A program made the translations under genes and the position numbers. From the IMG/VR virus record IMGVR_UViG_3300036715_001696, positions 1 to 20,649 of that record: DNA of 20,649 nucleotides. One strand, written 5' to 3'. Below the pieces are notes generated by a model. It had not been told where the DNA came from, did not search any database, and was given only the letters and a program-made list of their open reading frames with translations. Origin of the DNA: a virus. Numbering within the stretch: the stretch's first letter is position 1; every line of letters begins with the position of its first letter. Positions 995-14,070 of this stretch are shown here, one piece after another.

Positions 995-1579
995 TTAAAA
1001 TGTTTGAGCTTTATTAGTAACAAAAGCTCTCATTTCAGTTACTCTACGTAGCCATCCTGCTAAGAATTTTTGTTGAGAAGGATCTTGATCAACAATATTT
1101 TTATAAAATTTTTCTCGTTGATCACATACATCATTGCATATAGAAAAAACATCTTTTGAATTAATAATTGATAACGAGTTAGGACCAATAACACCGTCAG
1201 CAGTGATCCCAGCAGCTCTTTGTATAAATTTTGCAGCAGTGCTCGGGCCGTGCTGAACAGCACCGTCAAAATGTAATGCAGCCAGGTGCCCATTCAGCTT
1301 ATCGCACTTAGCGTTTAGCCAATAATTGGCGAAATAAACAGCCTTTGCAGTATCCCATGCTAAATGTGTAACATCAATTTCCGTATGTGATTTTTTAGCT
1401 ATTCCGTACTTAGTTTCACCGCCGCGATCACCTACAGTATTTGTATACCCACATGCTTTCCTATGTTCTGGTGTATCTATTAATCCATCTTTCGCGCCTG
1501 GCGTATTAATATTCCATTGTCCGCCTACTTCGTATAACATACAATGATTAACTGCTTTTTCAAATGCGTCTGAGTACAT
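995..1579 (-). CDS. endolysin, GH108-type N-acetylmuramidase with C-terminal peptidoglycan-binding-like region
   Basis: A 194-residue protein predicted to cleave the glycan backbone of peptidoglycan, most likely as the lysis enzyme. The N-terminal half carries the GH108 (ZliS-type) pattern: a Glu followed by Gly-Gly (E17 in YEVGGQW, the likely catalytic acid) and the DxGGETxYGI block at about 51-60. The C-terminal half fits the family's PG_binding_3 region: NGHLAALHFD around 96-105, ITADGVIGP around 125-133, and REKFY plus FLAGWLRRV around 155-180. About 25 residues separate E17 from the GGET block, more than the short spacing I recall for the family, so this loop may be expanded. There is no signal peptide or membrane segment, so a holin encoded elsewhere would be needed for release. 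The start is supported by AGGAG about 7 bases upstream, and a late promoter lies just beyond. It is divergent from the neighbouring nuclease gene. Confidence 0.85.
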   Translation of the reverse strand: MYSDAFEKAVNHCMLYEVGGQWNINTPGAKDGLIDTPEHRKACGYTNTVGDRGGETKYGIAKKSHTEIDVTHLAWDTAKAVYFANYWLNAKCDKLNGHLAALHFDGAVQHGPSTAAKFIQRAAGITADGVIGPNSLSIINSKDVFSICNDVCDQREKFYKNIVDQDPSQQKFLAGWLRRVTEMRAFVTNKAQTF

Positions 1580-1609: not shown

Positions 1610-1615
1610 TACGTT

Positions 1616-1624
1616 GATAAATAA
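1616..1624 (+). promoter_or_regulatory. T4-type late promoter for the PD-(D/E)XK nuclease gene
   Basis: GATAAATAA matches the box found upstream of three baseplate units in this window. Predicted initiation is near 1629-1630. This puts the TTG at 1614 upstream of the transcript and supports a later start codon for the gene. It lies back to back with the minus-strand late promoter, with six bases between the two boxes. Confidence 0.6.
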
Positions 1625-1643
1625 AATAAACATGGGACTTAAT

Positions 1644-2168
1644 ATGCCGAGTAAATCAAAAACAAAGGGAAATGGTTGGGAATTAGACGTAGCTAAATTT
1701 TTAACAGACAGGTATGATAGTACTTTTCTTAGAGTACCTAGCAGTGGAGCATTTGTAGGTGGTAAGAACAACTTTAGAAAGGCGACATTAGACCAAGCAC
1801 AATTACAAAGTAAGAAAGGAGATATACATCCTCCACAAGATTGGAAACATTTTAACTGTGAATGTAAATGCTATGCAGATTTCCCATTTCACCAATTATG
1901 GACCACAGATGTAAAAATATTAGATTCGTGGATACAGCAACAGCACGATGTTGAAGATGAGGGTGATTTAAATTTAATTTTAATTAAAATTACGAGAAAG
2001 GATAAATGGGTGGTGTACCAAGAAAACTTAGGATTTATCTCTTCTCGTGGTTTGTTATATAAAGGATGGATATTTACTAGTTGGGATGATTTCTGGGATA
2101 AAGAAGCTAATGTTAATTTAGTTCAGAAATATTCTCTAAATTCAATTCTATCTGCACAGGTGATGTAA
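1644..2168 (+). CDS. PD-(D/E)XK nuclease, Holliday-junction-resolvase-like
   Basis: A 174-residue protein counted from the ATG at 1644. In-frame alternatives are ATG 1632 and TTG 1614, but the late promoter covers 1616-1624, and GGGA lies about 7-10 bases before 1644. Visible motifs fit the PD-(D/E)XK fold as used by Hjc-type resolvases: E13 in GWELDVAKFL (helix 1 acid), RVPSSGAF around 30-37, D60 in GDI, and E73-C-K75 on the next strand (ECKCY). The likely role is cleaving branched DNA, possibly replacing T4 endonuclease VII (gp49) in processing recombination intermediates before packaging; this role is inferred, and the fold assignment is firmer than the substrate. Its last 56 bases overlap the end of the convergent minus-strand gene. 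Downstream is T-rich (2169-2195) without a clear hairpin. VRR-Nuc-like or general phage nucleases are alternatives. Confidence 0.65.
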   Translation: MPSKSKTKGNGWELDVAKFLTDRYDSTFLRVPSSGAFVGGKNNFRKATLDQAQLQSKKGDIHPPQDWKHFNCECKCYADFPFHQLWTTDVKILDSWIQQQHDVEDEGDLNLILIKITRKDKWVVYQENLGFISSRGLLYKGWIFTSWDDFWDKEANVNLVQKYSLNSILSAQVM

Positions 2169-2883
2169 GTTTTTTCAATTTTCTTTTTTGTTTAGTTTCT
2201 TCGTCTTCTATTACTTTAACAACCGGTAATAGAGGCAATAGTAACTTTTTCCAAAAATCAAAACCTATAGTAGGAATAGCAGTAGATGCCCGTTTACCTA
2301 AACTCATAAACACTGAGAGTTTAATATTAAGTGTGCCAGATGATGGAACAGTTCTTGTATTTAGGTATTCAGCCATAGTGTTGCCATCAATCTCAAAACA
2401 ATCTATTATATCTTCGTTTCTGCTATCAAACAACATTAAGAGAGTATCTATTCCTTTTGAACTAATATTATCTTTTATGTTGTATGATGCATTGTATGAA
2501 GATTTTAAACTAGTTGTATTGTGTTTATAGACAATATTATTGATAATTTTATCAGGGCTAACTGAATATACTGTATCAGCTATTGTTTTATAAAATTTTG
2601 ATTCATCTGTATAACTAGACTTTAATTCGACAGGCACAAATATCTTACCAATAAGTTTTATAGCATCAGGGCCTGTCTTTTTAGCTAATATAGGTAAGAA
2701 TCCCAATATAACAGCACAGCGTATATCATGCGCCTTAGATGAGAGTGTAGTTGACGTTGCTTTACCTGATTCGATATCGAACCCGTGATATTCTTTTAGA
2801 TCAAAAGAATTATTTGCTAATTGTCTAATATATGTTAATGTATTCTGTGCTACTCGTAATTTATATGTATCAATTGAAATCAT
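2113..2883 (-). CDS. unknown 256-aa protein, possible PD-(D/E)XK nuclease
   Basis: I do not recognise this protein. It is the last gene of the gp55-gp47-gp46 operon, in the slot where T4 has the sliding clamp gene 45, but it does not look like a clamp. One suggestive pattern is P72-D73 followed after about a dozen residues by a hydrophobic strand ending E86-L-K88 (IFVPVELKSS), the spacing seen in PD-(D/E)XK endonucleases. A second acidic stretch, DIIDCFEIDG, lies at 158-167. The C-terminal part has a Pro/Leu-rich segment (LLLPLLPVV, 214-222) and a Lys/Glu-rich run at about 225-239. There are no signal peptide or clear membrane segments. The start at 2883 is supported by AAGGA seven bases upstream, but that site lies inside a long inverted repeat. 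The 3' end overlaps the convergent nuclease gene by 56 bases. The gene call is fairly safe, the nuclease idea weak. Confidence 0.6.
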   Translation of the reverse strand: MISIDTYKLRVAQNTLTYIRQLANNSFDLKEYHGFDIESGKATSTTLSSKAHDIRCAVILGFLPILAKKTGPDAIKLIGKIFVPVELKSSYTDESKFYKTIADTVYSVSPDKIINNIVYKHNTTSLKSSYNASYNIKDNISSKGIDTLLMLFDSRNEDIIDCFEIDGNTMAEYLNTRTVPSSGTLNIKLSVFMSLGKRASTAIPTIGFDFWKKLLLPLLPVVKVIEDEETKQKRKLKKLTSPVQIELNLENISELN

Positions 2884-2958: not shown

Positions 2959-5790
2959 CTAACTACTTGCTGTTTCAATTGACGTAAATCCGCCCTCTTT
3001 TACCACCTTTAGAACATTAGATATTCTGCCTACTAATTCATCTCTATGAGAAATTAAATAAATATTTCTTTTATTTTCTCTTCCCATTTTCTTTAATATA
3101 CTTACAGCAGCTTCTACACCACTTGCATCTAAACCTTGGTCTAATAATTCATCTACAAATAGCAAATTAATCTTATCATTCATATTTTCGAACACATCAC
3201 GAAAAGCCCAAGATAAAGATAATACAAGCCGAGTTCGTTCTCCGCGACTTAGATTATCAAAATCAAATTCTTTGCCTAACATACTAATCTCAACTTCTAA
3301 GTCTGATTTGAATTTTACAGAATGAGGCAACCCTATGTCAGTTAAGTAATAACTTAGACGTTGGTTAAGGTATGTAAGATTTTGATCAATGATTTTCTTA
3401 CGAATAAAACTATCTTTATTAGTTAATAATTTTAAAAGATATTCTTGATGGTCTTTGAGTACAGTTAAATCGTTTATCTTTGTAAAATCAATTTCTTGTA
3501 ATCCTGTTTTTCTTAAAGCATCAATTTGTTCTAAATAAGGATTAGAAGTTTCTAACTCTGATGATAGACTATTTCCTAATGTATCTAATGTTGTCTTATG
3601 ACTGTATGCTTCGTCTATTGTTAAATAAAATGTATTAGGTAATTTAGGAATCATAGATGATACAGACGATGTTAGATGTTTTACATCGTCTCGCTTTAGT
3701 GATTTTTCAATTAGTTTTTCATTAGCTTCTTTAAGTTGTAATATATACTCGTCATGTACTTTAGTATGTGTTTCTTTATCCATATCTTGATTACATGTAG
3801 GGCATATACTTTCAACTGATGTTGCTAATATTTTATTTAATCTAGAAACAGATATAGACGAGGATGCTACTTCTCTCTCTAATGTTGATAATTCTTTTGA
3901 TAAAGATCTATATTCAGTATTCAGATCTTCTACATCTTTTTTAGATTTATGTAAAGAAATTTCAGCATCAATATTAACATTCATTAATTCTAGAATAGCT
4001 TGTTGTAGTTTTGTAATCTTTAATTCTTTAGATTTGTCCCATTCTTCGGATTTAACATTTAAAGCTACAATATTCTTTTCTATGCGTTTATTTGCTTCAG
4101 AAGCAGCAGATATTCTGAATTCCTCTTCTCTAATTATATCTTTAGTTATTCTTACTTCTTCCTTAAGTTTATCAGCTTTTTCCGAAAGTTTAGTAATTCC
4201 TAATAATTGTTCGATAATAATTCGTTGATCGTTTGTTCTTAATGATAAAAACGGCTCAACATATGTATTCAAAGCAAGAGTATGTTTAAACATATCATGA
4301 GAAATACCTATAAGTCTTTCAATTTCAGCTTGTGTATTACGACCCTCGCCTTGTGATTCATCATCACCAGAATCTTTCTCTATGCCATCTTTAATAAATT
4401 TAAAAATACCAGGCCTACGACCTCGCTCAATTTTATAATTGACACCATTTATTTCAAATGTCAATGTAACTAACATATTTTTCATGTTAGATTTGTTCAC
4501 TAAGTTATCTTTTTTAATATTTGTTAGTGCAGTTCCGTATAAGGCATAGCTAAGGGCATTAACAATGGCCGAATTATGAGTAACAATATAATTGTCAGTA
4601 ATATATAAATGTCGAGGATGGTCAATTAGGATACATTTTGAATCTTGTAATCCTAGTTTTTCTATTTTATCGATGCGAAGTCTTAAATTACTGTATTGAT
4701 GATTGGCAGAGATTTTATTTATTTTCCGAGATAACTTTGACAATTTTCTCGGATCAGAATATCGAATAGAAATATTATAATTTTGCAAACCTGTTTTACG
4801 TTCGCCTTTATATGTATAATACGGAATCTTAGAAGTAATCTTAGCTATACCCCCAATTGACCGTACTATTTCTTGAATATCTTCTGCCATATTTTTACTT
4901 GATGTTGATATAGAGATACTACTGCTACTACCTACATGCCCATCAGTGTCTACTAAACCAGCTAATAAATCTAATTTTTGATTTTTAGATGCTAATTTAT
5001 ATATACCCGGTATAAATTTTGTATGTGATAAAGTATCTCTTAAACCTAACTCTGTAATTTTTAATCGCAAAGGGTGGTTCTTTTGCTGACCACACAAAAT
5101 ACTATACTTATAATTTTCTATATTAGATTTTTTAATATATAAACCGTCCGGTAATCTCGAAGATATATTATCTGAAATTTCCTGATCGGCAGAAGTAAAC
5201 CCAATAGTATTCCCTCCATATCCAAACGACTCATCACCGAGTAATGTGCCTAATATGTATGGGTCTATAGGTAATTCAATATCAGACGAATTATCGTCAA
5301 TTAATGGAATATACATATATCTAATATTAGCATTATTCCCATTATTATATTTGCATCTATCTAATAATGGTATAATTTCTTTTGTTGTTAATACCTTTGT
5401 TGTTTGTTCACCCTCTTTTCGCCATTGGTGGGAAAATACTTCCCATAGATGATTTTCACAACACTCTGTAGTTCGTCCATCAGCGAATGTGATTCTATAT
5501 GTGTCGATTTTACCTTGAGGGAAAATATCTGTAACAATGGACGACGTACCGTCTGGACACGATACTGTATCACCTATCTTAATGTCTCCCATAGTAGTCC
5601 ATCCATCTGGCGTTTTAATTTTCGAATGTAGCGGTTGAGCTTTACCTACACCGTTCCTATTATCGTTACCGCCTAGATCTAAATTCTCACCTAATACAAG
5701 GACCAAATCATTACTATTAAAATTAATGGCTTGAGAGACATTACCTACAGACATGAAATTTTTAATTGTTAATCCGTTTAGTTTAATCAT
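2959..5790 (-). CDS. 46: gp46-like recombination endonuclease subunit (SbcC/Rad50 family), intein-interrupted
   Basis: A 943-residue precursor: 50 residues of N-extein, a 356-residue intein (51-406), then the rest of gp46, giving a 587-residue mature protein close to T4 gp46 (560). gp46 is the ATPase partner of gp47 in resecting DNA ends for recombination-dependent replication. Seen here: the Walker A end NGVGK^S, split by the intein; long coiled-coil-like charged stretches at about 530-720; the zinc-hook CPTC at 663-666; the ABC signature LSRGE at 847-851; Walker B LLFVDE at 876-881; the D-loop LDASG at 887-891; and the switch His915 (ISH). The segment preceding the P-loop is longer than in T4 and lacks the usual first Gly of GxxGxGKS, as I recall for marine T4-like gp46. 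The gap from gp47 is only 5 bases and no clear ribosome binding site is seen, so translational coupling is likely. Removing the intein is required for ATP binding. Confidence 0.93.
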   Translation of the reverse strand: MIKLNGLTIKNFMSVGNVSQAINFNSNDLVLVLGENLDLGGNDNRNGVGKAQPLHSKIKTPDGWTTMGDIKIGDTVSCPDGTSSIVTDIFPQGKIDTYRITFADGRTTECCENHLWEVFSHQWRKEGEQTTKVLTTKEIIPLLDRCKYNNGNNANIRYMYIPLIDDNSSDIELPIDPYILGTLLGDESFGYGGNTIGFTSADQEISDNISSRLPDGLYIKKSNIENYKYSILCGQQKNHPLRLKITELGLRDTLSHTKFIPGIYKLASKNQKLDLLAGLVDTDGHVGSSSSISISTSSKNMAEDIQEIVRSIGGIAKITSKIPYYTYKGERKTGLQNYNISIRYSDPRKLSKLSRKINKISANHQYSNLRLRIDKIEKLGLQDSKCILIDHPRHLYITDNYIVTHNSAIVNALSYALYGTALTNIKKDNLVNKSNMKNMLVTLTFEINGVNYKIERGRRPGIFKFIKDGIEKDSGDDESQGEGRNTQAEIERLIGISHDMFKHTLALNTYVEPFLSLRTNDQRIIIEQLLGITKLSEKADKLKEEVRITKDIIREEEFRISAASEANKRIEKNIVALNVKSEEWDKSKELKITKLQQAILELMNVNIDAEISLHKSKKDVEDLNTEYRSLSKELSTLEREVASSSISVSRLNKILATSVESICPTCNQDMDKETHTKVHDEYILQLKEANEKLIEKSLKRDDVKHLTSSVSSMIPKLPNTFYLTIDEAYSHKTTLDTLGNSLSSELETSNPYLEQIDALRKTGLQEIDFTKINDLTVLKDHQEYLLKLLTNKDSFIRKKIIDQNLTYLNQRLSYYLTDIGLPHSVKFKSDLEVEISMLGKEFDFDNLSRGERTRLVLSLSWAFRDVFENMNDKINLLFVDELLDQGLDASGVEAAVSILKKMGRENKRNIYLISHRDELVGRISNVLKVVKEGGFTSIETASS
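4573..5640 (-). mobile_element. full-length class 3-type intein with LAGLIDADG homing endonuclease, in the gp46 P-loop
   Basis: Precursor residues 51-406 interrupt the Walker A motif exactly between K50 and S407. The first residue is Ala (AQPLHSKIKTPDGW, block A), not Cys or Ser. The end is IVTHN followed by Ser+1. The Trp-Cys-Thr triad that defines class 3 inteins is present: B:12 Trp116 (two residues after B:10 His114), F:4 Cys386 (KCILID) and G:5 Thr404. In class 3 splicing F:4 Cys attacks the N-terminal junction directly. B:7 is Cys111 where Thr is usual. The middle holds two LAGLIDADG helices, PYILGTLLGDE (177-187, D186) and LLAGLVDTDGH (275-285, D283), both with their acidic residue, so the homing endonuclease may be active. 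The reading frame is intact. Insertion in a conserved nucleotide-binding loop is typical of inteins. Confidence 0.92.
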
Positions 5791-5795
5791 TTATT

Positions 5796-6815
5796 TTATA
5801 ATCCGTTATAAATTTCGATAAATTTATTAATATCATAGTTTGAATCTTTATCTAAAGCACCTAATGACTCAACTACAATCTGATCTACTGTTTTGAATAT
5901 TATATTTTTGGTAAGGTCAGTAGACACTTCGTCATCTGACGTCCTAATTAGTTTAAATTCTCTAACATTATATTGTTCTAAGAATGTTTCTCTAAGATAT
6001 GCTGCTTCTTCGTAAGTTATGTCTGCATCGACGACTACCTGTAAATATGTTTTTGGCTTTAAATAAAGATCAGGATCTGACAATAATGCAGAAAGTGTGA
6101 TATTTATAAATCTAGGTCCAGCAGTATAATTTAAATATTCTGGCTCCTTATCCCATTCTAAGTACATACAACCTCTTTCAAAATCCCATACATCTGCATA
6201 GTTATGCCCAAATGGATTACCAATATAACTAATTTTACCTTTAATTTGTCGTATATGGAAATGGCCTGAGAATACATAGTCTTGATTTTTAAAATGTGTC
6301 GAATTTAAGTGTCCGTGATCAGGCATTTCTACCTGAGCATTCATTTTAAACCCAGGTAATTCTAAATGCCCAAACAAATATTTTGATTTAATTTTAGTAA
6401 CTGCTTTCCATTCGTCATCAATTAACCAAGGAATTAACGCAACATCACCGGATATTAAATGATTGTCTACTAGAATAATATTAGGGAATAACGAAGCAAA
6501 CTTAATCGAAGTTATAGATCTATTATCTCGAAAATATAGATCATGATTTCCGACCATAAAATAAGTTTTTTCAAACGAATCATTTAATTTAGATAATAAT
6601 TTTATACCATATTCTAGTGTTAATGTATTAATTGTGTTCCTATGGTGATAGAAATCTCCCATGAATATACAAGTTTCTGCACCTCTATCCTTAGCTTCTT
6701 GTATAAACCAATCAACATAATCAATACAATCATCTAAATGATCTTTAGAGTTATGCCTAAGCCCGAGATGAATGTCAGAAAACACACACGTTTTCTTGAA
6801 TAGTTGTTTAGTCAT
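5796..6815 (-). CDS. 47: gp47-like recombination endonuclease subunit (SbcD/Mre11 family)
   Basis: A 339-residue calcineurin-like metallophosphoesterase, the same length as T4 gp47. It is the nuclease partner of gp46 and acts on DNA ends during recombination-dependent replication and host DNA degradation. All metal-binding motifs are visible: D14-x-H16 (FSDIHLG), GD at 53-54 with the following His residues, GNHD at 89-92, H150 (FGHLE) and GHFH at 184-187. The C-terminal 150 residues would form the cap and the gp46-binding region, which I cannot confirm from sequence. The start at 6815 overlaps the end of the gp55 gene by 8 bases (ATGACTAA) and is preceded by a strong GGGGAGA ribosome binding site inside gp55. 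gp46 follows after 5 bases. The order 55-47-46 is as in T4. Confidence 0.95.
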   Translation of the reverse strand: MTKQLFKKTCVFSDIHLGLRHNSKDHLDDCIDYVDWFIQEAKDRGAETCIFMGDFYHHRNTINTLTLEYGIKLLSKLNDSFEKTYFMVGNHDLYFRDNRSITSIKFASLFPNIILVDNHLISGDVALIPWLIDDEWKAVTKIKSKYLFGHLELPGFKMNAQVEMPDHGHLNSTHFKNQDYVFSGHFHIRQIKGKISYIGNPFGHNYADVWDFERGCMYLEWDKEPEYLNYTAGPRFINITLSALLSDPDLYLKPKTYLQVVVDADITYEEAAYLRETFLEQYNVREFKLIRTSDDEVSTDLTKNIIFKTVDQIVVESLGALDKDSNYDINKFIEIYNGL

Positions 6816-11484: not shown

Positions 11485-14070
11485 ATGGGATATATAAACA
11501 CATCGACTCGAACTACAAAACCTACATCTAGGGATAGTTTTCAACCAGCAGGTAGGTCAACCTTATTAAGCGGTGTATACCTGGGATTTGTTAAAGAAGC
11601 AACTGATGTACAACGCAACGGTCGTCTTAGAGTATGGATACCAGAACTAGGTTCTGCACCCGATAATGCAAATGGATGGGTTATTGTAAACTATTGTTCA
11701 CCGTTCGCTGGTGCAACTAATGTCGACTCCATTAGCTCCACTGATACACATTCGTTTGATACAACACAAACATCGTACGGTATGTGGATGGTTCCACCGG
11801 ATGTTAATAATGAAGTATTAGTAATGTTTATAAACGGAGATCCTTCTAGGGGTATTTGGATCGGGTGTCTATATAATCAATTTATGAATAACATGATACC
11901 TGGAATGGCAGCTGATGCTAAAAACTGGGAATATCCAGGTAAATCAGTGCCTGTAGCAGAATATAACAAATGGGATACATCAGTTACAGAACCTGATCGT
12001 GCAATTAAACCTTTTGAAAAAACTAAATTTAAAGGTTTAGGAAATCAAGGATTGATTACCGATAAGGGAAGGGGAATAACAACATCAAGTGCTCGAAGAG
12101 AAGCACCTAGCAATGTATTTGGTATTATTACCCCGGGCCCTGTAATCGATGATAAGGTGACTTCGGATAAATTTAGAAGAAAAGGTGGATCCTCGTTTAT
12201 TATGGATGACGGGGTCGGGTCTGAATATGTACAGCTTGTAACAAAGACTGGTGCTCAAATTAGATTAGACGAAACAAACGGGTTTGTTTATTTAATTAAT
12301 AGAGACGGCACATCATGGGTACAAATGGATCAAAAAGGCAATGTTGATATATTTGGTGCAAGAGATGTTGCAATTCGCGCACAGCGAGATTTTAATATTC
12401 GTGCCGATCGAAATATCAACATTGAGGCTGGCCAAAACATATTTATGAAGGCTGCAAAGGATACATTAGAAGAAACAACAGTGTTTACGTATGATGTTAA
12501 TAATATACCTAAGACAAAAGTTATACCAGCATGGAAATATAAAGGCGAAGGCAACGGCGCTGGCGGCAATATTGTAATGCAAGCATTAGGTAATTGGCAT
12601 AGTACTACAAAGAGTAATGCTTTTTTGACAGTAACTGAAAATAATTTCAATATTAATGTAGGTAACGGATTTAATGTTACAACATTAGCAGGTGGTCAGC
12701 AGTATAATTCTAAGTTAGGTATAAAGATGACTACAGATGCCGCAGTAGATATTGCAGCAACAGGTAATATCCGTGTCGGGTCAAATGGTAGTATTTCAGT
12801 AGTCGGTAATAATGGTATGGCATTATGTACTAATTCGTCTGTTAGTATTAATGCTTCTAATAATATTATATGTACTGCGGCAGGTAAGATTTCTGCAGAT
12901 GCAATGGAAGTCGATATTGGCACAAGTGTTAAAATAAAAGGTAATTTAGATGTTACGGCAACAGTAAAAGCAAAGAGTTCACAGGCTGCAACAATGAAGT
13001 CGTCTACTGTATGTATAGATGGCCAATCATTAGGAGGCGGCAGCCCTGCTGCACCGGTGTCGCCAACTACCCTAAATCCGTCTATAGCAGAACAAGCAAT
13101 GTCAGCTGATTTAGCAAAAATTGCCGAAATTAAGCCTCTTATCGAGAAGATTAATATACTTGCAACATGGGAAACATCTGTAAAATACATAGATTGGCAA
13201 CAAAATACCGCTTACCAAGGTGGTGATATTAGGGCATATAATAAGGTATTGTTTATTGCTAATAATAAAGGTGCGCCTGCATCCCCGACATTTAATACTT
13301 CGTACTGGATAATATATACTCCAGAAGATAAATTTAAAAGAAAAGCAGAATCAGTAGAAACTACAGTTTCTAGATTACCTACGTATGAGCCGTGTCCAGA
13401 GCACGAAACTTTTACCTTTGCTAGTATCACTGGTTATATACCAACTCAAACAGAAGCGGCAAAGACATATAATGGTTCAGCAGGTGCAGGAAATGACGCA
13501 ACAAGTTCGCCGGCACCAAATACTGACCCAGGTGCCAACAATAAAGACTTACCACCGGCGAATGCAGACGATAGTGCAGTGTCTAAAGATTTTAACATGC
13601 CAGCCTACGAGTGCGAATTAAAAATAAATGAAGGTGTTAAATATGTATCATACAATGATTCTAGAGGTTTACCAACAGCAGGAATAGGGCATTTATTGCG
13701 AACAAATGAAATTTCTAAATACCCTGTCCCGACACCTGTACCATCAGATCAAGTGTCAGCATGGTTCCAGTCAGATGCACCGGTATCAATCACTGGTGCG
13801 CAACGACTATTAGGTATAGACTGCTGGGGTAATCTATCAGATATAAGAAAACGTGCATGTGCAGATCTTTGTTATAACATGGGCGAAGCAGGCTTAGGTA
13901 AATTTAAAAACTTTTTAGCCAGTATGAAAGCAAACGATTTCAATGCTGCCGGTGCTGCATTACGAGACTCTGCTTGGTTTAAACAAGTAGGTCAACGAGG
14001 CCCTAGAATCATAACAATGATTACTCAGGATGCAGATCCAAATGGTTGCGATAAAAAATTTCCAGGATAA
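11485..14070 (+). CDS. 5: gp5-like baseplate spike with C-terminal T4-lysozyme-type domain
   Basis: An 861-residue central spike protein that pierces the envelope and cuts peptidoglycan during injection. Domains in order: an OB-fold (about 27-135; GVYLGFVKEATDVQRNGRLR to GIWIGCLYNQF); a linker; a repetitive beta-helix (about 235-515) with VgrG-like short repeats such as VDIFGARDVAIRAQRDF and NINIEAGQNIF; a compact module at about 559-617 (NTAYQGGDIRAYNKVLFIA, then YWIIY) resembling CBM5/12 chitin-binding domains; a Gly/Pro/Asn-rich linker; and a GH24 lysozyme domain at about 702-861. The T4-lysozyme catalytic triad is conserved: E716, D725, T731 (EGVKYVSYND, then PTAGIGH), as is CYNMGEAGLGKF. 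In T4 gp5 the lysozyme lies between the OB-fold and the helix; here it is last. AAGG lies upstream of ATG 11485. The M15 peptidase gene follows after three bases. Confidence 0.87.
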   Translation: MGYINTSTRTTKPTSRDSFQPAGRSTLLSGVYLGFVKEATDVQRNGRLRVWIPELGSAPDNANGWVIVNYCSPFAGATNVDSISSTDTHSFDTTQTSYGMWMVPPDVNNEVLVMFINGDPSRGIWIGCLYNQFMNNMIPGMAADAKNWEYPGKSVPVAEYNKWDTSVTEPDRAIKPFEKTKFKGLGNQGLITDKGRGITTSSARREAPSNVFGIITPGPVIDDKVTSDKFRRKGGSSFIMDDGVGSEYVQLVTKTGAQIRLDETNGFVYLINRDGTSWVQMDQKGNVDIFGARDVAIRAQRDFNIRADRNINIEAGQNIFMKAAKDTLEETTVFTYDVNNIPKTKVIPAWKYKGEGNGAGGNIVMQALGNWHSTTKSNAFLTVTENNFNINVGNGFNVTTLAGGQQYNSKLGIKMTTDAAVDIAATGNIRVGSNGSISVVGNNGMALCTNSSVSINASNNIICTAAGKISADAMEVDIGTSVKIKGNLDVTATVKAKSSQAATMKSSTVCIDGQSLGGGSPAAPVSPTTLNPSIAEQAMSADLAKIAEIKPLIEKINILATWETSVKYIDWQQNTAYQGGDIRAYNKVLFIANNKGAPASPTFNTSYWIIYTPEDKFKRKAESVETTVSRLPTYEPCPEHETFTFASITGYIPTQTEAAKTYNGSAGAGNDATSSPAPNTDPGANNKDLPPANADDSAVSKDFNMPAYECELKINEGVKYVSYNDSRGLPTAGIGHLLRTNEISKYPVPTPVPSDQVSAWFQSDAPVSITGAQRLLGIDCWGNLSDIRKRACADLCYNMGEAGLGKFKNFLASMKANDFNAAGAALRDSAWFKQVGQRGPRIITMITQDADPNGCDKKFPG

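Follow-up and report, generated by a model that had tools for sequence, protein, structure and literature searches.

Class 3 inteins are defined by a Trp at position B:12, a Cys at F:4 and a Thr at G:5 (the WCT set), are usually followed by Ser or Thr at position +1, and do not need a nucleophile at residue 1 (PMC5222942). They are considered to be monophyletic and of phage origin (PMC3196547), and they usually have an Asp at B:7 (the DxxH motif), for which a role in positioning the N-terminal scissile bond has been proposed (PMC6195587). Insertion into a P-loop between its Lys and Thr has been described as classic (PMC5050341). Here we describe an insert in the gp46 gene of a viral DNA stretch of 20,649 nucleotides (the window), which is the whole of its source record. 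We consider it very likely that this insert is a full-length class 3 intein, with a Hint and a LAGLIDADG domain in the Walker A motif of gp46, and that it splices and homes as proposed below. The kind of intein is known, and the gp46 host and the CxxH variant at B:7 are modest extensions of it.

The gp46 locus and its insert

gp46 and gp47 form a core recombination complex of large phages, and their SbcC/SbcD equivalents are practically universal in jumbo phages (PMC7824862). In the window, the exteins of the interrupted open reading frame match the SbcC-like PHROG 77 in a PHROG profile search (E 3.8e-90) and the gene adjoins that of its gp47 partner, so that homology and gene neighbourhood both point to the gp46/SbcC family. 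A late sigma factor gene lies beyond gp47 (PHROG search). Since the gene order matches that of PA5oct-like phages, with identities of 54% for gp46, 58% for gp47 and 54% for the sigma factor, the window most likely represents part of the genome of a large myovirus. A megablast search of the window against phage records gave no matches, hence no near-identical empty allele was found, and a search for a second intein within the 20.6 kb record was likewise negative.

The insert is in frame and lies exactly between the Lys and the Ser of Walker A (RNGVGK/SAIVNAL, with a slash marking the junction here and below), giving the junctions RNGVGK/AQPLHSK and IVTHN/SAIVNALSYALYG. Using the joined exteins we fetched 49 gp46 loci, of which 46 (46-78% identity) align through the insertion site without an insert and carry NGVGKSTIVNAL or close variants there; in the remaining three the alignment is broken, but there is no match to an intein. 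Mature gp46 thus lacks the segment in the 46 relatives. The closest intein-free relatives are 70-78% identical to the window's gp46, and the intein is a sporadic, and probably recent, gain within the window's own gp46 clade. The earlier note on this DNA, made from the sequence alone, had placed an intein between the Walker A Lys and Ser, and its junction, coordinates and residue assignments proved exact: the relatives lack the insert at precisely that point, and none of the 46 that can be aligned carries the segment within mature gp46, which the note had named as evidence that would count against it. The features are listed in Table 1.

Table 1. Features of the intein-bearing gp46 gene and its partner gene, in window coordinates
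Feature	Position	Strand	Remarks
gp46 (SbcC/Rad50-like ATPase) precursor ORF	2959..5790	-	943 aa; PHROG 77, E 3.8e-90
gp47 (SbcD/Mre11-like), partner subunit, directly upstream of gp46	5796..6815	-	PHROG 100, E 2.7e-61
N-extein, 50 aa, ending RNGVGK (Walker A up to Lys)	5641..5790	-
Class 3 intein, 356 aa, AQPLHSK...IVTHN	4573..5640	-	precursor residues 51-406
C-extein, 537 aa and stop, beginning SAIVNALSYALYG	2959..4572	-
Ser+1 codon (G:8), Walker A Ser and predicted second nucleophile	4570..4572	-
Block A, begins with Ala1	5602..5640	-
B:7 Cys61 (C111 in precursor)	5458..5460	-
B:10 His64	5449..5451	-	invariant in 141/141 relatives
B:12 Trp66 (W116 in precursor), part of WCT	5443..5445	-	invariant in 141/141 relatives
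LAGLIDADG homing endonuclease domain, approximate limits	4681..5355	-	PF14528, PF05204; AlphaFold2 model; PI-SceI match
Motif 1 Asp136 (LLGDESF; D186 in precursor)	5233..5235	-
Motif 2 Asp233 (LAGLVDTDG; D283 in precursor)	4942..4944	-
F:4 Cys336 (C386 in precursor), part of WCT, predicted first nucleophile	4633..4635	-	invariant in 141/141 relatives
G:5-G:7 Thr354-His355-Asn356 (Thr is T404 in precursor)	4573..4581	-	Thr invariant in 141/141 relatives

Several other genes of the window were assigned. A baseplate hub or tail lysozyme gene (11485-14070, plus strand) matches phage endolysins over its C-terminal residues, approximately 712-836, and another gene, at 995-1579 (minus strand), is GH108 endolysin-like. 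A PDDEXK_15 or Holliday-junction-resolvase-like nuclease is encoded at 1614-2168 (plus strand), opposite to gp46. Downstream of gp46, an ORF of 256 aa (2113-2883, minus strand) had no family match in Pfam and PHROG searches and does not resemble the gene that a PA5oct-like phage has in this position.

Class, fold and position B:7

The window's intein carries every residue of the class 3 definition, namely W66, C336 and T354, together with Ser+1, H64 (B:10), H355 (G:6) and N356 (G:7), and it begins with Ala1 in place of the Cys, Ser or Thr of class 1; the first step is predicted to proceed via the F:4 Cys. The WCT residues and the B:10 His are invariant in all 141 distinct relatives that we aligned, which came from viral contigs, phage records and bacterial genomes. 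Their N-side flanks end in GK in 133 of 140 cases, and the +1 residue is Thr in 111, Ser in 29 and Cys in one. In a tree of splicing domains, six class 1 inteins were separated from 68 WCT inteins, including those of mycobacterial DnaB, with support of 99/94 and with the window's intein on the WCT side, the class 1 outgroup being small and on long branches (NpuDnaE and gp41-1, checked against their PDB sequences, with the remainder from phage records). Both the class 3 assignment of the earlier note, based on Ala1, WCT and Ser+1, and its expectation that a tree with known class 3 inteins would not place the segment with class 1 are borne out.

It could be argued that this is a class 1 or class 2 intein resembling class 3, in which splicing would begin with residue 1 or with Ser+1 attacking directly, and in which the F:4 Cys would be incidental. 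Class 1 inteins can indeed have Cys at F:4, and an intein of Lactococcus phage LW81 (L241) combines Cys1, Cys F:4 and Thr G:5 without Trp B:12, so the F:4 Cys alone is not diagnostic. However, class 1 chemistry is impossible with Ala at residue 1, the window's intein has Trp B:12, the 99/94 split sets class 1 apart from its clade, and class 2 has been described in KlbA only (PMC3196547), which together make this alternative extremely improbable.

A Hint or intein model was sought in the whole gp46 ORF with Pfam and NCBIfam and was not found, only the LAGLIDADG part being detected; in Pfam, PF14528 (E 2e-8) and PF05204 match the second half of the intein. Of the two domains for which the earlier note had suggested a Pfam search, the endonuclease was therefore recovered and the splicing domain was not. 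As these libraries detect LAGLIDADG alone, identification of the splicing domain rests on PHROG profiles, PDB matches, the structural model and the tree. The PHROG profiles that the insert matches (E 6e-33) derive from terminases and helicases that contain inteins, and this match, like that of the exteins to PHROG 77, goes far beyond chance. Used alone as a query, it matches solved intein structures in the PDB as well as 757 phage records, every one of them below 60% identity. AlphaFold2 modelling with a 34-sequence alignment gave a confident Hint plus LAGLIDADG fold (pLDDT 92.2, pTM 0.92), for which PI-SceI is the best whole-length match (Z 28.4 over 336 residues). The class 3 Msm DnaB intein 6bs8 (Z 19.1, rmsd 1.4 A, 123/125 residues) ranks highest among structures of splicing domains only, with others, class 1 domains included, scoring nearly equally. 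The predicted fold supports an intein and by itself does not give the class.

Both LAGLIDADG motifs of the window's intein keep their catalytic acid (D136 and D233), and motif 1 reads GDE, where 116 of the 126 relatives that keep the motif 1 Asp have GDG. The intact homing endonuclease of the earlier note thus holds for the two acids and the predicted fold but not for the usual form of motif 1, and intact should be taken to mean the presence of both acids and of the fold, nothing more.

The usual, non-defining Asp at B:7 is absent from the window's intein, which has Cys61 at this position, directly preceded by Cys60. Cys is clearly a common alternative in the sequences aligned: the 141 relatives have 58 Cys, 58 Asp, 10 Ser and 15 other residues at B:7, a Cys to Asp ratio that is no census, as the relatives were gathered using the window's intein and its kin as queries. 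Among the 23 gp46 inteins, including the window's own, the residue is Cys in 10, Asp in five, Ser in four, Gly in three and Thr in one. The earlier note had treated Cys instead of Thr as a peculiarity, which does not stand given these counts and the fact that Thr is the norm of class 1, that of class 3 being Asp. One may speculate that these inteins include a CxxH subclade, in which a B:7 Cys replacing the usual Asp beside the scissile bond would provide a second active-site thiol, acting either in a relay or in a disulfide with the F:4 Cys, and would render splicing redox-sensitive; we consider this unlikely. If it were true, the redox state would affect the splicing of gp46 and of other phage replication and repair ATPases. 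The variation between Cys, Asp and Ser makes the role of B:7 in class 3 chemistry directly testable.

Residue 1 also varies among the relatives. Twelve of the 13 inteins with Cys1 belong to UvsW-like helicases and have full WCT and Cys at B:7 (L185, L197-L200, L205-L207, L210, L218, L224 and L225); the nucleophiles of class 1 and class 3 are both present, providing a natural test of which one acts. Three gp46 inteins (L106, L107 and L122) have Ser1, WCT and Ser at B:7, and three others (L175, L186 and L238) start with Phe (FQ.VD), an unusual residue 1, and have Gly at B:7.

Recurrence and kinship of gp46 inteins

Besides the window's own, 22 other distinct viral inteins were found at the same gp46 seam, between GK and Ser or Thr. 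A degenerate pattern for the C-terminal junction (THN-[ST]-gp46) retrieved 19 viral contigs, each with a gp46 gene that has an intein at GK/T, and further cases came from the A1 scan with the host assigned by flanking sequence (L190 and L230 being the least certain). Among GenBank phages there is at least one gp46 intein, in gene 539 of Salicola phage SCTP-2, which has it at the same seam and is annotated as a hypothetical protein; with both junction queries, SCTP-2 was the best and the sole recognisable gp46 host among the GenBank phage matches listed. We found no report of an intein in gp46, SbcC or Rad50 in the open-licence papers searched, and gp46 is apparently undescribed as an intein host, though recurrent. 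The possible novelty that the earlier note saw in a gp46 host with B:7 Cys is reduced accordingly, as 22 further gp46 inteins exist and 10 of the 23 have this Cys. gp46 is hence a host in which class 3 inteins recur at a single fixed seam. Because Pfam and NCBIfam miss the splicing domain and gene 539 is annotated as hypothetical, annotation-based intein censuses will undercount.

The window's intein is one of 19 among the 23 that keep Asp at both aligned endonuclease positions, whereas L057, L100, L117 and L119 have lost both acids, and together they form a natural series for the homing cycle. Two further phage loci came to light. SCTP-2 gene 204 (L242, 1403-3373, plus strand), RecA-like and annotated as hypothetical, has two class 1-type mini-inteins (Cys1, ...SHN/S), and the T4-like gp41 helicase of Shigella phage ESh36 (L240, 1382-4362, plus strand) is interrupted by a split intein, the halves of which flank a nuclease-like ORF.

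The nearest kin of the window's intein are the UvsW inteins L051 and L052, at 57 and 53% identity. A tree of splicing domains only leaves its place among gp46 and UvsW inteins unsettled, and we used full-length trees instead, which group it with L051, L052 and the AAA-ATPase-like L164 (99/96 and 88/95) and not with other gp46 inteins. A constraint that keeps all 23 gp46 inteins in one group comes at a cost of 69 log units (p-AU 0.017), and one that keeps the window's intein with its four best gp46 counterparts (L112, L115, L118 and L162) gives p-AU 0.011; for the 14 gp46 inteins with intact endonuclease the value is 0.08. A single site-specific lineage of all gp46 inteins is disfavoured with the 23 rows but less so with the 14. 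As the nearest inteins lie in UvsW-like helicases rather than in other gp46 genes, inteins have probably entered gp46 more than once, a reading that is moderately supported. The lineage as a whole occupies the seam between GK and Ser or Thr in many phage P-loop ATPases, the names UvsW, PhoH, DnaB and TerL for hosts other than gp46 being our reading of flanks and record annotations. The DNA at the UvsW sites of L051 and L052 is identical to that at the gp46 site in 13 and 12 of 36 bases, respectively, so that a jump between these hosts would need relaxed recognition.

In three pairs of gp46 inteins, the intein is more conserved than the adjacent C-extein (82 versus 73%, 81 versus 61% and 73 versus 54% identity), which fits spread between phages after their host genes had diverged, with a maintained endonuclease. 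The two closest pairs have dN/dS values of approximately 0.08 in both the splicing and the endonuclease parts (NG86; dS is high and in some cases saturated). This shows purifying selection in related gp46 inteins, the window's own intein having no close relative for such a comparison.

Proposed mechanism and comparison with known systems

The precursor gp46 would be unable to form a working P-loop and hence to use ATP, as suggested by the insertion site and by the precedent of the RadA P-loop (PMC6195587). We propose that Cys336, aided by His64 and Thr354, would attack the peptide bond between Lys50 and Ala1, that the N-extein would pass to Ser+1 and that Asn356 would then cyclise, leaving the joined exteins as normal gp46 in which ...GVGKSAIVNAL is uninterrupted. 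The endonuclease would cleave gp46 alleles that lack the intein at their conserved P-loop codons, and repair would copy the intein in. Splicing, the order of its steps, DNA cleavage, the direction of transfer and any regulatory role are inferred. The earlier note went too far in stating that the insertion ties recombination-dependent replication to splicing, as an inactive precursor is a consequence of the insertion site and not evidence of regulation, which is possible by analogy.

Two other accounts of the insert need to be weighed. If it were a decayed intein or an assembly artefact, it would be retained in the protein, and gp46 would either lack activity or depend on a further copy for rescue. 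There is a precedent for a class 3 pseudogene that does not splice (Arth_1007; PMC3196547), and a second gp46 could lie elsewhere in the phage, of which the window is a 20.6 kb fragment. Against this, the gene is a single open frame of 943 codons with all catalytic residues kept, the recurrence of this insertion among 22 further distinct inteins excludes a chance chimera, and SbcC/SbcD are practically universal in jumbo phages (PMC7824862), so that we regard decay or artefact as very improbable. The intein might instead be kept as a regulatory switch, for example a redox switch via Cys61, Cys60 and Cys336, with recombination-dependent replication awaiting splicing, a role that is compatible with a splicing and homing class 3 intein. 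A DnaB class 3 intein can be stalled by a disulfide to its F:4 Cys, and in the structure of that intein B:7 is close to both Ala1 and the N-terminal scissile bond (PMC6195587); Cys at B:7 is also common in the clade (58/141). However, the closest gp46 relatives live without the intein, its distribution and the divergence between intein and extein fit a selfish homing element, and B:7 varies freely among Cys, Asp and Ser within gp46 inteins, which leaves a switch improbable, if somewhat less so than decay.

As a full-length class 3 intein, the window's intein can be compared with several described systems. It shares WCT, His B:10, Ala1, Ser+1, P-loop insertion and the Hint fold (Z 19.1, rmsd 1.4 A) with the class 3 DnaB inteins of mycobacteria (Msm DnaBi1, 6bs8; Mch DnaB1, 6rix), but differs from them in its gp46 host, in having Cys rather than Asp at B:7 and in sequence (26-29% identity). 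It also carries a LAGLIDADG domain, whereas the solved 6bs8 and 6rix constructs are splicing domains only. The inteins of mycobacteriophage TerL and DnaB belong to the same class, and the TerL1-a site is the same P-loop seam between Lys and Thr (PMC5050341). In the splicing-domain tree, actinobacterial DnaB and terminase inteins form another subclade, apart from the gp46/UvsW/PhoH clade. PI-SceI (the Sce VMA intein), a class 1 intein with Cys1, is alike in fold, endonuclease included, but lies in a eukaryotic host gene and is 16% identical. The SCTP-2 gene 539 intein has in common with the window's the gp46 host, the P-loop seam (GK/T), WCT and Cys B:7, but it is 32% identical and has lost both endonuclease acids (to Arg and Ile). 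The UvsW-like helicase inteins L051 and L052 are, like the window's intein, full length, share its motifs, including Cys at B:7 and both endonuclease acids, are inserted at the P-loop seam (GK/T), and differ from it in their host protein and the flanking 36 bp.
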